From: a virus
IMG/VR virus record: IMGVR_UViG_3300010233_000240
Span: 1,654 to 22,310 of that record
Length of the DNA stretch: 20,657 nt
Strand: one strand, 5' to 3'
Positions 6,707 to 14,582 of this stretch are shown here, in pieces. Made by a program: the position numbers and the translations under genes. The notes under the pieces were generated by a model. That model worked only from the letters and a program-made list of their open reading frames with translations. It had not been told where the DNA came from and made no database searches. Numbering within the stretch: position 1 is the stretch's first letter; each line of letters opens with the position of its first letter.

Positions 6707-7306
6707 ATGGATTACATTGTCTACGATGAAACCGGAGAGATTGTCAGCTGGGGGAGTTGCGATACTCCTCCTGCTCCCGGAGATGGCTTAACGCTAGTGG
6801 AAGCAACTGCAAGCGGGTTTACCCACTACATCAGCAACAATGCGCTGACGGCCTATACTCCGGAACAGGCAGCAATTAAAGCTGCTACTCCGGAGTATCC
6901 CTGCCACTGGAGCAACGCAACGTTCTCTTGGATTGACGACAGAGACTTGAACGTAGCTAGACAAGCTCAATGGGACACAATCAAAGCTGACAGGGATGCA
7001 GAAATCTACGGAGGACTTGTTTGGGACGGCTCAACGTTCGATACTGATATGGTTGCTCAGAGTAGGATTTCTGGTGCTTGCACACTGGCTCTGATGGCTG
7101 TGGTTGCAGGACAAGCGGGTGCCTTCAGTAAGACGTGGAAGCTCGCAGACAATACCACACGTGTGTTGTCAGCAACTCAAATGATGGCTGTAGGCGTAGC
7201 GCTTGGACAAATGGTGCAAGCTGCTATTGACAAGGGACAGGTGCTGTTGCTTCAAGTAGGTGCAGCATCTAGTTCAGAACAAATTAGGAGTATCCAATGG
7301 TCTTAA
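6707..7306 (+). CDS. DUF4376-type tail fibre-associated protein
   Basis: A 199-aa protein whose C-terminal half (about 100-180) matches the DUF4376 pattern found in phage fibre or fibre-assembly proteins: VWDGSTFDTDMVAQSRISGA, then TWKLADNTTRVLSATQMMAVGVALG and QMVQAAIDKG. The N-terminal 60 residues (YIVYDETGEIVSWGSC) look like the short beta segment that often precedes this domain. It starts one base after the fibre stop codon and is surely co-expressed with the fibre gene. The role could be fibre chaperone or a small attached structural part; the sequence cannot decide. The C-terminus runs past the domain by about 18 residues and overlaps the next gene by 10 bases. Confidence 0.72.
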   Translation: MDYIVYDETGEIVSWGSCDTPPAPGDGLTLVEATASGFTHYISNNALTAYTPEQAAIKAATPEYPCHWSNATFSWIDDRDLNVARQAQWDTIKADRDAEIYGGLVWDGSTFDTDMVAQSRISGACTLALMAVVAGQAGAFSKTWKLADNTTRVLSATQMMAVGVALGQMVQAAIDKGQVLLLQVGAASSSEQIRSIQWS

Positions 7307-7536
7307 TCAAACTAGGACACTATCTGCTGAGAGTGTTGAAAGCGTTAGACCGTCTTGGGAATGCTCTCATCGGTGGTAACGATAAAGAAACACTGTCGTC
7401 AGTAGCCTACCGCAAGTATCGAGATAACAAGCCCTATGGTTTCACCATGGGTATTATCAACGAACTGTTTTTCTTCCAACCCAACCATTGTGAAATTTCA
7501 TATTCTCACGACAGGTTGGCTGACTTGCCGAGTTGA
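7297..7536 (+). CDS. Small conserved phage protein of unknown function
   Basis: A 79-aa protein. A good Shine-Dalgarno (AGGAG, about 7 nt upstream) sits inside the end of the previous gene and supports the ATG at this position. The N-terminus is amphipathic to hydrophobic (HYLLRVLKALDRLGNAL), followed by IGGNDKETLSSVAYRKYR, and the C-terminal part has PNHCEIS. The layout 'LNALLGGD..ETLSSR...HC' is one I recall from small proteins next to phage tail or lysis genes, for which no function is established. The N-terminal helix could associate with membrane, but it is too polar to call a clear TM segment. It is in the late operon between fibre and lysis genes. Confidence 0.62.
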   Translation: MVLIKLGHYLLRVLKALDRLGNALIGGNDKETLSSVAYRKYRDNKPYGFTMGIINELFFFQPNHCEISYSHDRLADLPS

Positions 7537-11016: not shown

Positions 11017-12930
11017 TTATTTAATCGGGCACATTCCACCAACACATTCATCCCCGCCTTCAAACTCTGCACTCGACAGAGAAGTAATCAGACGAGTAGA
11101 CGCGAACAGCGCATCATACACTTCCTTCGTCACTTCTTCATAGGGCGCTTGCTTGAAGCCGTGGTCGCTATGCAACAGGAAAGACAGGCTCTTGTGGCTG
11201 TTCTTGTAGTTGTGAGCGAGGTACTTACGAATCTCAGGCAGTTCTTCAGGACGGTAGTAAACCGTACAGCTGACGCTGTTGTCGCTCCACGTCTTCTGCA
11301 TCTCCTTGACAGCCTTCAGTTGATCGATAGCTGTCATGTCCTTCGCCAGCACAGTACCTTCAGGGTAGCTGAATGGGAAGCTCACGACAACTGTACTACG
11401 ATCTTCCGTGTTGTCAAAGTTCTTCTGGTACTCGACTGGATAGCCATGATCCCGACAGATTTGGACAAGCGTGTGATCGGCCATGATCCGGATACGACGA
11501 ATCATATACTGAGCGTAACCTGGATGAATACCCGGAGTGACACCAGGGATAAGACTCAACGTCCCAGACGGCTTGATCGTCGTCAGCTTGACAGACGGAG
11601 CCCAGCCGTGCGCAGCGCTGTAGTCCCGGTCGAACTGTCGCAGTTGCTCGTACACCCAATTGAGCCAGCTGCGCTGTTCCTTCGTCGCCTGCAGGACACC
11701 CGTCATGCCGATGCCCATCCGCATGTTCTTGTGAACAATGCTTTCCGTTTCCTTGTGGTGACACGGCAGCATGAGCGAATGCTTGTTGATACGATAGAGC
11801 AGCTTAACGATGTCTAGGAGTTCTTCCCGCGAGGTGACATTCGAGAGATAGACTTCAGCCAAGCAGCAAGTCTCAAACGACGCCAAGCTCTGTTCCGCAC
11901 AGGGGTTATAGCCCATGACATCGGGGTCGGGGTATTCCGTCTCACCAAGCCGTCCAATCTTTCGAGAGAGTTCAAGGTTGATAAGGCCGAATGGTTCGCC
12001 CTTGCCAGTGTAGCCGTCCCAGAAGTACTCGTGAAGATCACGGATGTTCTCACAGACGACGCTGTTGTTGCTCATGGCACGCCAAGAAGGAATGTTGCCC
12101 ATGTCCCAGCGCTTCGACAGCAGGTACTCAACGTCATCACAATCGCCGATAGCAATCTGCGCAGAGCGACGGACATTGCCAGCCACCACGACAGCGCCGA
12201 TGATGTTCATGATGTCGAGAGCATCGATAGGACGAATCTTCTTGCCCGCACGCTTCTCAAGAACTTCGCTGATCTTGGCTACGCCCCAGCACAAATCTTC
12301 AGGGCCAGAGGCTGTACCACCAAAGCCTTTAATCGGGGCTCCCTTGCCACGAATCAGCTGAGTGCTATAGGAGAACGTCGGTTCATCCTTATCGCTCAGG
12401 AAGGCTGCTTTAAGCGTCTTGGATAGCAAGGCAACCCAGCCTTCACGAGTATCCGAGATGATGTAGTCCGCAGAAGCGTTGTCCTGACGAACAGGAGGCT
12501 TGAAATTCACATTGACTTCCGGCAGCTTTTCAACGTGCTCACGCTGGATGTTATATCCAACTCCGGAGCCAAGCATGAGCATATCCATTGCCCAGGTGAA
12601 CGGACGCACAGGTTCGTCAACAACGACGAAGGCACAGTTCTGCAGGGAGGCAAGTCCAAGCGTGTCCACAGTCTTGGTGCCCAGCTGCCAGAGAAATCGT
12701 CCAGCAACGGTGCCCTTTAGTTCAAGCAGGTAGCGTTCAAGCCGGTCTTGTTCGTCACTGGTAAAGCCAACACCAAGCTGGTCGTTGGTTGCACGGACAA
12801 CACGGTTGACAGTGTCAGGGAATTCTTCAGTGGGGCTGTTAATGTCTTGCTCATTGAGGCGACGAGCATAAGTACGTTTGTAAGTCAAATAGCCCACTGT
12901 GGAGAACGGAGTGTTAATTGCTTCGGTCAA
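11017..12930 (-). CDS. nrdJ: Adenosylcobalamin-dependent ribonucleoside-triphosphate reductase (class II, monomeric)
   Basis: Reduces ribonucleotides to deoxyribonucleotides for phage DNA synthesis, using B12 coenzyme. Numbering from the chosen start (637 aa): NPCAE at 342-346 holds the active-site Asn, thiyl Cys344 and Glu346. LQNCAF gives redox Cys99, and Cys355 in ETCC is its partner with the same +11 spacing as Lactobacillus leichmannii C408/C419. The C-terminal CVGGMC (629-634) is the dithiol that re-reduces the site, spaced like C731/C736. GNVRRSAQIAIGD is also typical. It is about 100 residues shorter than the 739-aa L. leichmannii enzyme. I prefer TTG at 12930 because AAGGA lies 5 nt before it; ATG at 12945 lacks a ribosome site. 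It overlaps the upstream gene. No thioredoxin gene is seen in the window. Confidence 0.93.
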   Translation of the reverse strand: MTEAINTPFSTVGYLTYKRTYARRLNEQDINSPTEEFPDTVNRVVRATNDQLGVGFTSDEQDRLERYLLELKGTVAGRFLWQLGTKTVDTLGLASLQNCAFVVVDEPVRPFTWAMDMLMLGSGVGYNIQREHVEKLPEVNVNFKPPVRQDNASADYIISDTREGWVALLSKTLKAAFLSDKDEPTFSYSTQLIRGKGAPIKGFGGTASGPEDLCWGVAKISEVLEKRAGKKIRPIDALDIMNIIGAVVVAGNVRRSAQIAIGDCDDVEYLLSKRWDMGNIPSWRAMSNNSVVCENIRDLHEYFWDGYTGKGEPFGLINLELSRKIGRLGETEYPDPDVMGYNPCAEQSLASFETCCLAEVYLSNVTSREELLDIVKLLYRINKHSLMLPCHHKETESIVHKNMRMGIGMTGVLQATKEQRSWLNWVYEQLRQFDRDYSAAHGWAPSVKLTTIKPSGTLSLIPGVTPGIHPGYAQYMIRRIRIMADHTLVQICRDHGYPVEYQKNFDNTEDRSTVVVSFPFSYPEGTVLAKDMTAIDQLKAVKEMQKTWSDNSVSCTVYYRPEELPEIRKYLAHNYKNSHKSLSFLLHSDHGFKQAPYEEVTKEVYDALFASTRLITSLSSAEFEGGDECVGGMCPIK

Positions 12931-13123
12931 GAGTATCCTTTTCATTGTTATCAAATCGATGCGTCTGGAGCGCCCCTAGCTCCCAAACATCTTCAATGCT
13001 TGCTGATGGAATTTCCATGCAGCACATTCGCACAGCTTCATTGGCTGTGTCAGCGTCTACTCGTAGCGTGTTCCATGCCCGCGAGAGCAACGGTAGACGA
13101 TAGGCTACGATGTAGGTGTTCAT
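12914..13123 (-). CDS. Hypothetical protein, 69 aa
   Basis: A soluble small protein that begins MNTYIVAYRLPLLSRAWNTL and has RVDADTANEAVRMCCMEIPS and ASIEDVWELGALQTHRFDN. The beta-strand, then 'VDADTANEAVRMC', then 'I.DVWELG' order looks like a short alpha/beta domain in which residues about 22-35 form a helix. No family is recognised. The start overlaps the upstream stop as ATGA and the end overlaps the reductase start by 17 bases. The tight coupling suggests co-expression with the reductase, but a partner role is only a guess. Confidence 0.62.
   Translation of the reverse strand: MNTYIVAYRLPLLSRAWNTLRVDADTANEAVRMCCMEIPSASIEDVWELGALQTHRFDNNEKDTLDRSN
12931..12940 (-). promoter_or_regulatory. 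Ribosome binding site that decides the reductase start
   Basis: AAGGA at 12940-12936 followed by 5 bases and TTG at 12930. The ATG at 12945 overlaps the start of this site and has nothing similar before it. Confidence 0.5.
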
Positions 13124-13323
13124 CGCGTCTTGTAGCTTTCACGAACAAGCCTGTGGTAGTCCACTGGCTCTTGCTCAAACGGATGAAATTCAGCTTTGAC
13201 ATTCACGAAATCGTTGTGTTCAATGCTGATTTCAATCTTCGTCACTTGCTCAGGATCAAGACCACACAACCGAATGATCTTCGCAGAGACTTCGCCGCTA
13301 GAGAGTGCTGGCTTCTTTGTCAT
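13120..13323 (-). CDS. Hypothetical protein, 67 aa
   Basis: Clear start: AAGGAG five bases before ATG, which itself overlaps the upstream stop as ATGA. The product starts MTKKPALSSGEVSAKIIRLC, continues GLDPEQVTKIEISIEHNDFV and ends NVKAEFHPFEQEPVD plus a basic tail YHRLVRESYKTR. The central part reads as beta strands with alternating hydrophobic residues. No family is recognised. Both ends are coupled by 4-base overlaps to neighbours. Confidence 0.65.
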   Translation of the reverse strand: MTKKPALSSGEVSAKIIRLCGLDPEQVTKIEISIEHNDFVNVKAEFHPFEQEPVDYHRLVRESYKTR

Positions 13324-13862
13324 TGATACTCCTTAGCCGTCTTCAGCGAGCCGTACTCGTTGTATGGATTGCCACGGATCGAATCACGAAGTTCTTCAAG
13401 CTGCTTAATCTGTGCTGCGACATCTTCGAAGTCAGGCTCAGAGTAGTCTTGCTCTTGTTGATTCTCTCCCGACACTTGCCGATTGGTTGTCAGTTCTGCA
13501 TGAGAGCTAGTGCCAGCCAGCTTTGCCAGTTCCCGAGTCAGGGACATGTCAGTCTGCGAAGCTGCAATCATTCGTTCGATAGGCGTGCACATAGGGCCGT
13601 TGAGATACTCACGATCTTGCGTGATAGTTCCAACAGCACGGAAGCCTACAGCCACCTTGTTCTGAAGATCACGATGCTTAGCTGGCTCATAGAACACAGC
13701 GGCTTCAACATTGAACCCAAGCTGACCGAGGTAGCTATTGATAAGTGCATCGTTAGCAATGCTCAACATGTCAAGCTCACGGAGATGAGACAGTTCCGGG
13801 ATTCGTTGAAGATCACGGAAGGAAAAAACACGAGAGATGGTACTACTCCTTAGATTTACCAT
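13320..13862 (-). CDS. Conserved-looking hypothetical protein, 180 aa or shorter (start uncertain)
   Basis: A soluble protein with a firmly coding core: SRVFSFRDLQRIPELSHLRE, LDMLSIANDALINSYLGQLG, FNVEAAVFYEPAKHRDLQNK, VAVGFRAVGTITQDREYLNG. The C-terminal 60 residues are acidic and low in complexity, ending in a helix (DVAAQIKQLEELRDSIRGN). No family is recognised. The start is a real problem. ATG at 13862 (used here) and ATG at 13886 lack ribosome sites. A perfect AAGGAG lies at 13851-13846, 7 nt before ATC (13838), giving ISRVFSFRDLQ. A near-cognate AUC start is possible, or this strain has lost an ATG. The 5' end overlaps the HNH gene upstream. Confidence 0.62.
   Translation of the reverse strand: MVNLRSSTISRVFSFRDLQRIPELSHLRELDMLSIANDALINSYLGQLGFNVEAAVFYEPAKHRDLQNKVAVGFRAVGTITQDREYLNGPMCTPIERMIAASQTDMSLTRELAKLAGTSSHAELTTNRQVSGENQQEQDYSEPDFEDVAAQIKQLEELRDSIRGNPYNEYGSLKTAKEYQ
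13836..13851 (-). promoter_or_regulatory. Perfect Shine-Dalgarno followed by ATC instead of ATG
   Basis: AAGGAGTAGTACCATC: AAGGAG, 7-base spacer, ATC in frame with the 13320-13862 gene. The HNH stop codon TAG lies in the spacer. Similar in layout to the site at 14422-14437. Confidence 0.5.
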
Positions 13863-14406
13863 GGCGCTCAGAATATTGCGCCCCATCGGTATTTAGTTTA
13901 TTAATCATGTCTTCTCTCCAAGCACATGCCATTTTAAAAGCCACTTCTTCACCATATTTTGGAACAGAAAAAGTCTTTGTCAATTTCTGTCTGTTCAGAT
14001 CAAATACTTTAGCCGTCCAGACTTTGTAACCCGGAACAGCTTCATAGCTTGTTACTCCGCACATACCAGACGTGTTTGTGGAGAACAACTTTTGATTACG
14101 CTGATTTACGGCACGGGTAGTCCGCCTGAGATTGCTCTTCTTTGTGTTCGAATAGTTGCCATCTTTGTGGTCTACGATTAGACCTGTCGGCATGTCTCCA
14201 TTAAACAAGAAGTCCACAATCGAATGAGCCATATACTGCTTGCCGTCATAGCCTACTTGAAAGTACCCGACAGGTGTTTGCCAACCTGCAACGTCCTCTG
14301 GCTTAACCAGAAGAACATTCCCTTGGTTCCCACTTCTTCGTTCCACAGTCCATCTCAGACAACTTGGACTTGATTCGTCATATCGTAAAAGTGAATGCCA
14401 GTCCAC
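13843..14406 (-). CDS. HNH homing endonuclease with AP2-like DNA-binding domain
   Basis: A 187-aa free-standing homing endonuclease type. The HNH motif is IVDHKDGNYSNTKKSNLR (residues about 78-94) with Asp79-His80, Asn84 and Asn92, in the usual order for phage HNH enzymes. Residues about 108-165 (STNTSGMCGVTSYEAV, WTAKVFDLNRQKLTKTF, EEVAFKMACAWRE) have the three-strand-plus-helix pattern of an AP2 domain, which recognises the DNA target. The annotated start is GTG, with no ribosome site. AAGGAG stands 7 nt before an in-frame ATA at 14424, adding ITKTGA, and may be the true start. The gene is richer in A/T than the flanking genes, in line with transfer, and sits between small unknown genes rather than in an intron that I can detect. 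Confidence 0.82.
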   Translation of the reverse strand: MDWHSLLRYDESSPSCLRWTVERRSGNQGNVLLVKPEDVAGWQTPVGYFQVGYDGKQYMAHSIVDFLFNGDMPTGLIVDHKDGNYSNTKKSNLRRTTRAVNQRNQKLFSTNTSGMCGVTSYEAVPGYKVWTAKVFDLNRQKLTKTFSVPKYGEEVAFKMACAWREDMINKLNTDGAQYSERHGKSKE

Positions 14407-14420
14407 AGCCCCGGTCTTGG

Positions 14421-14582
14421 TTATGGTTGGGCTCCTTCGTTGTTATTGTTGTCGGGGTCAAGTTCGTCCATGATGACTTGTTCACAGACTCGGTTGTCAC
14501 ACAGGGGTGTCAGGTTGAAAAGGTAGCGGGTAGCCCAGCATGCGCACACCTCACACAACTCGCCCGTGTCTTTGTTATTCAA
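14421..14582 (-). CDS. Small Cys-rich, possibly zinc-binding protein, 53 aa (TTG start)
   Basis: I choose TTG at 14582 since AAGGAG lies 5 nt before it (14593-14588) and it overlaps the upstream stop as TTGA. A GTG at 14633 would add 17 residues but has no ribosome site. The product begins (M)NNKDTGELCEVCACWATRYL and continues FNLTPLCDNRVCEQVIMDEL, with an acidic Asn-rich tail. The CxxC and CxxxxC pairs could hold one zinc ion in a small knuckle-like fold. Function unknown; it may bind nucleic acid or a protein partner. Confidence 0.58.
   Translation of the reverse strand: MNNKDTGELCEVCACWATRYLFNLTPLCDNRVCEQVIMDELDPDNNNNEGAQP
14422..14437 (-). promoter_or_regulatory. Perfect Shine-Dalgarno followed by ATA instead of ATG
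   Basis: AAGGAGCCCAACCATA: AAGGAG, 7-base spacer, ATA in frame with the HNH gene and overlapping the TAA stop of the upstream gene. It shares AAGGAG-N4-ACCAT with the site at 13836-13851. Confidence 0.5.

Follow-up and report, generated by a model that had tools for sequence, protein, structure and literature searches.

Apparent insertion of a predicted HNH homing gene ahead of a native Shine-Dalgarno sequence, and an ATC codon at the downstream start position, in a metagenomic virus scaffold

Weak or missing ribosome sites and translational coupling are usual among the free-standing homing genes of phage T4, according to PMC2988022. In that account, mobE, segC, segF, and mobA lie between genes and overlap or abut the upstream stop codon, as does the HNH gene described here, which likewise has a poor or absent ribosome site and is likely to be translated by coupling (PMC2988022). 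Its nuclease architecture differs from those of the T4 genes, and a lost start codon in the downstream neighbor is not described for T4 homing genes in the passages considered here (PMC2988022). Phage homing genes that combine HNH and AP2 domains are found close to the genes for DNA polymerase and ribonucleotide reductase (PMC10448857). The present gene resembles the IPA-HNH homing endonuclease genes of ICP1 (PMC10448857; PHROG 99) in its putative HNH-then-AP2 order (with a subthreshold AP2 match), in its proximity to DNA polymerase and ribonucleotide reductase genes, and in its sporadic presence at conserved gene junctions. According to that source, IPA-HNH domains have diverged too far to match the HNH_3 model (PMC10448857), whereas the protein studied here matches HNH_3 above the cut-off. 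In comparison with the ICP1 genes, cleavage and homing in the present case are predicted.

The infC gene of Escherichia coli starts at AUU. Near-cognate starts in Staphylococcus aureus include AUA in infC, ccpN, and citZ and AUU in cvfC1 (PMC13009471). The conserved gene downstream of the HNH gene (here called core) is like infC, ccpN, citZ, and cvfC1 in having a strong Shine-Dalgarno sequence before an AUN codon that replaces AUG. In contrast, the E. coli and S. aureus near-cognate starts have ribosome-profiling or reporter evidence behind them, with conservation in several cases, whereas the core AUC is at present seen in one metagenomic sequence and is common to no relative.

The window, by which we mean the whole stretch of 20,657 nucleotides analyzed, is part of a 26,110-base virus scaffold (IMG/VR record IMGVR_UViG_3300010233_000240) interrupted by four 10-N gaps, of which two lie at the window edges. 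Genes on the minus strand run in the order exonuclease, HNH protein (16714-16166), small gene, metallophosphatase, two small genes, the small gene "up," the HNH gene under study, core, two small genes, and a B12-type ribonucleotide reductase (nrdJ). No known phage with DNA resembling the window was found, the core protein had no tblastn match in known phages and none in prokaryote genomes, and a single-protein scan of viral contigs found no HNH relatives. The IMG/VR contig L002 has the same gene order without the HNH gene and shares 72-80% protein identity with the window for metallophosphatase and core; metallophosphatase, the small genes, and core are syntenic in relatives such as L002 and L130. 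Core itself had no match among solved folds, and its best viral fold matches were to unnamed or uncharacterized phage proteins only. Thymidylate synthase was considered, the one match so labeled (PHROG 3506) was weak, and the protein was left without a function. Coordinates of the junction are given in Table 1.

Table 1. Features at the junction between up and core, in window coordinates
Feature	Positions	Strand	Comment
Upstream small gene up	14424..14582	-	TTG start, AAGGAG 5 nt upstream
Left AAGGAG	14432..14437	-	7 nt before ATA; HNH leader or copy
Inferred inserted segment	13852..14438	-	587 bp; joined flanks give the L002 empty-site layout
ATA	14422..14424	-	In the HNH frame; probably does not serve as a start
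HNH homing endonuclease gene (predicted)	13843..14406	-	Pfam and PHROG matches; likeliest start GTG 14406
ATG 13862	13860..13862	-	Accidental in-frame ATG from HNH codons CAT GGT (His-Gly)
Right AAGGAG	13846..13851	-	Most simply the native ribosome site of core; aligned with AAGGAGTAAGC-ATG of L002
ATC	13836..13838	-	Where the ancestral ATG start stood
Core gene	13320..13838	-	172 codons from ATC; conserved phage protein

The initial annotation had pointed to an AAGGAG placed exactly 7 nt before an in-frame ATA (HNH gene) and an in-frame ATC (core), and both sites were confirmed on the minus strand, with the spacers CCCAACC on the left and TAGTACC on the right; the ATA overlaps the stop of up as ATAA. 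GTG 14406 and ATG 13862 were likewise found to lack a nearby Shine-Dalgarno sequence. The shared pattern AAGGAG-N4-ACCAT, picked post hoc after inspection, occurs exactly twice in the window (0 expected in shuffles), and the N4 of the two sites is wholly different (CCCA versus TAGT). AAGGAG alone is not above chance in the window (11 seen versus 11.45 expected). Triplets 4 to 9 nt downstream were counted at 451 AAGGAG sites in the related loci fetched by then; ATG was 3.3-fold enriched (160 seen versus 48.7 expected), and ATA, ATC, and ATT together were at or below background (117 versus ~138). Since these three triplets are not enriched after AAGGAG, one AAGGAG-then-ATA site is by itself unremarkable. 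Homology anchors only the ATC site. Predicted RNA structure was no better than that of shuffles at either site (z of 0.42 and -0.35). ATGGTA and TACCAT (window 13862-13837) can pair into a hairpin with the right Shine-Dalgarno sequence in its loop, with a stability not above that of shuffles. Neither the window nor the scaffold end stretches L052 and L053 contain a phage tRNA able to read the odd starts.

The empty site is observed directly in L002, where the upstream gene ends in NNKE* (AAGGAGTAA), followed by GC and ATG. That junction reads AAC AAT AAG GAG TAA GC ATG TCC CGT, so that the Lys-Glu codons closing the upstream gene (Asn-Asn-Lys-Glu-stop) are also the Shine-Dalgarno sequence of core. 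Removal of 14438..13852 from the window leaves AAC AAC AAG GAG TAG TACC ATC TCT CGT, and these joined flanks align with the L002 junction; the differences are two additional bases ahead of the start, some few substitutions, and a G-to-C change in the start codon. The inserted segment would thus sit after the Asn codon and before Lys-Glu-stop in the ancestral form of the upstream gene, with exact ends that are ambiguous owing to the AAGGAG at both edges. The precise empty site comes from the one sufficiently close relative, L002; elsewhere, an HNH match between the neighbors of core was found in none of the relatives. Together, the L002 site and the lack of an HNH match at the relatives' junction make the insertion of an HNH homing gene at this gene junction, as the initial annotation had proposed, well supported by comparison.

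The further proposal that the gene had landed behind a copied ribosome site was only partly borne out. For the right AAGGAG, the simplest reading is that it is the core gene's own ribosome site, not a copy, because excision of the segment restores the L002 layout, in which the same motif precedes the core ATG, and because the extra SKE* of the window HNH protein most simply contains a captured Lys-Glu-stop. The left AAGGAG may either have arrived with the insert or be a partial copy. The proposal had anticipated a single AAGGAG-N4-ACCATG at the empty site; none was found, and L002 carries AAGGAG-N5-ATG. Up, which shares 54% identity with its positional counterpart in L002, ends NNNNEGAQP* (stop TAA, 14423-14421), a C terminus that would be unlike NNKE* of L002 because of the insertion. 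Under the insertion model, an HNH-minus junction would read AACAAC-AAGGAGTAGTACCATG. If instead the left site were ancestral, such a junction would read AAGGAGCCCAACCATG-TCTCGT, and a close relative free of the HNH gene would carry the left AAGGAGCCCAACC immediately before ATG-TCT-CGT.

Family membership of the HNH protein was directly evident from matches to Pfam HNH_3 (37.9 bits; cut-off, 24.8) and PHROG 99 (E = 6e-37), accompanied by a subthreshold AP2 match (E = 6e-5; 23.7 bits against a curated cut-off of 33.3). A group I intron or other structured RNA was considered and rejected, the window being without an Rfam match. The HNH gene has its own stop and stands between two complete genes, outside any self-splicing intron or intein, and is predicted to be a free-standing HNH homing endonuclease gene. 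Five relatives start exactly at the position of GTG 14406, with ATG in L005, L050, and L055 (where it is the only start) and GTG in L049 and L061. The scaffold itself carries a second HNH copy (L053), which has ATG at that position. Because relatives and the second copy begin at this position, six codons after the ATA, the HNH protein most likely starts at GTG 14406. The starts of other relatives lie a few residues before or after it, including that of L014 four residues before, two codons after the ATA. No relative starts unambiguously at the ATA position; L058 alone could start there (position 1) or at an ATG (position 7). With the start placed at GTG 14406, the ATA is probably a fossil or a chance triplet. 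Against GTG 14406, the ATAA overlap with its AAGGAG resembles the ATGA/TTGA overlaps of the operon (L124, L125, and up2-up in the window), and it is possible that one G-to-A change turned a TGA stop into TAA and a true HNH ATG start into ATA. At the other end, the HNH family closes with ...GAGYTERHGK or HGT, so the last codons of the HNH gene in the window, SKE*, are extra; they run into the native Lys-Glu-stop, and the right AAGGAG forms the last two HNH codons.

Two other genes of the family have junctions of their own. The second copy on the scaffold (L053:2575-1999, minus strand) separates a DNA polymerase gene from the gene after it; stop and start codons overlap as TGATG at both ends, CTGATGG is shared, and an N gap lies inside. 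In L014 (6905-7495), an HNH gene of the same family follows metallophosphatase; there too, the closing Lys-Glu codons spell AAGGAG, and the GTG of the following gene lies 7 nt downstream.

The start position of core is directly apparent from its relatives. Among 17 distinct relatives, the start codon is ATG in 14, TTG in 2, and GTG in 1, never ATA, ATC, or ATT, and it falls at the codon aligned with ATC in 9 and at the next codon in 8. Residues upstream of ATC, whose conservation would have spoken for an earlier start, are conserved in 0/17. Codons 2-19 show no amino acid change from L002 while bases differ in 11/18 codons, so selection has acted right up to the core start, and the first strand of the predicted fold spans residues 2-6 counted from ATC. 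The ATC is preceded at 7 nt by UAAGGAG, a strong Shine-Dalgarno sequence at proper spacing. The RHGK or RHGT end, whose His-Gly codons contain ATG 13862, is conserved in the HNH family. Because the starts of relatives align here and upstream residues are not shared, either core has exchanged an AUG (or UUG) start for AUC or the assembly is in error at this base; the AUC could be a true near-cognate start, a recent loss, or an assembly error. A second copy of the right junction was not found in viral contigs.

Taken as one explanation, an HNH insertion ahead of the native Shine-Dalgarno sequence of core, an HNH start at GTG 14406, and a change of the core AUG to AUC form the account that we hold with moderate confidence. 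A free-standing HNH gene would have inserted at the small-gene/core junction, just ahead of the Shine-Dalgarno sequence of core, itself the closing Lys-Glu-stop of the upstream gene. This event would have re-tailed the upstream gene, leaving core with its native AAGGAG, which now would also encode the last HNH residues. HNH translation would begin at GTG 14406, probably by reinitiation after the upstream stop 14 nt earlier. The core start would then have gone from AUG to AUC by one base, and, if the sequence is right, core protein would be made from AUC at a low level, with help from the strong Shine-Dalgarno sequence and from HNH translation ending 4 nt earlier. Overall, the locus reads as an ordinary homing insertion plus one odd start codon. 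That the insertion itself selected for, or then underwent, conversion of the downstream AUG into a working AUC, with the Shine-Dalgarno sequence doubling as the last endonuclease codons and core kept at a low level, seems to us rather unlikely.

An error of consensus or assembly in this uncultivated-virus scaffold, affecting the ATC and perhaps the ATA too and concealing a real ATG start of core, is possible, although we doubt it. The N gaps, including the two flanking the window, might indicate an old or thin assembly; 17/17 relatives keep ATG, TTG, or GTG; and AUG-to-AUU start switches are extremely rare (1 of 61,358 ancestral AUG starts in annotated genomes; PMC5622118), a kind of near-cognate switch that annotation hides. 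However, the metallophosphatase, exonuclease, nrdJ, and core frames are intact over kilobases compared with L002, and two independent errors at neighboring start positions would be improbable. Translational coupling could instead start core within the HNH gene, at ATG 13862 (or 13886), adding the tail MVNLRSST-I-SRVF...; this start is in frame and open, and the 14 nt from ATG 13862 to the HNH stop is within the seven-codon reinitiation reach given for T4 (PMC2988022). We nonetheless think it quite improbable: this ATG lacks a Shine-Dalgarno sequence, its tail has no counterpart in relatives, it is a by-product of the HNH His-Gly codons, and a strong Shine-Dalgarno sequence stands instead 7 nt before ATC.

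Duplication of the core ribosome site by the insertion, with AAGGAG-N4-ACCAT at both ends and later divergence of the copies, would account for the 11/15 positions identical in register, and a short CTGATGG is likewise shared by the stop/start junctions on either side of the second HNH copy. Such a duplication is unlikely, given that 4/4 N positions differ while the flanks match perfectly and that L002 has the right-hand AAGGAG without an insertion; the CTGATGG shared around the second copy is to be expected where stop and start codons overlap. The initial annotation had also suggested that both genes are deliberately weakened by near-cognate starts, AUA for HNH and AUC for core. Each triplet follows a perfect AAGGAG at 7 nt, initiation at AUA or AUU behind strong Shine-Dalgarno sites gives ~10-30% of the AUG yield in S. 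aureus (PMC13009471), and homing genes are commonly downregulated (PMC2988022). The suggestion is not supported for HNH, whose family mostly starts at or near the GTG 14406 position; moreover, ATA, ATC, and ATT are not enriched after AAGGAG in related phage DNA, ATG or TTG is used wherever the start of a neighboring gene can be traced, and there is no evident reason to weaken core. We regard deliberate low expression of both genes as very unlikely.

In the preferred reading, that of an HNH insertion ahead of a native ribosome site, the window and L002 would show the start of one conserved gene with and without an HNH homing gene beside it, the insertion having spared the neighbor's ribosome site because it landed upstream of that site. 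A real AUC would represent a phage case of near-cognate initiation for which the ancestral AUG is known.

Other differences among these relatives were also seen. L002 carries an endonuclease-VII-like gene (6888-7370) between the small gene d3 and nrdJ; the same junction is empty in the window, making this a reciprocal insertion. The nrdJ start region of the window (12914-12954) is frame-shifted relative to L002, and the window d3 tail FDNNEKDTLDR resembles the nrdJ N terminus of L002, MDNSNEKKEEH. In L017 (6001-7701), the metallophosphatase match falls in two pieces ~770 bp apart (query 8-263 and 263-308), which suggests an insertion inside that gene.
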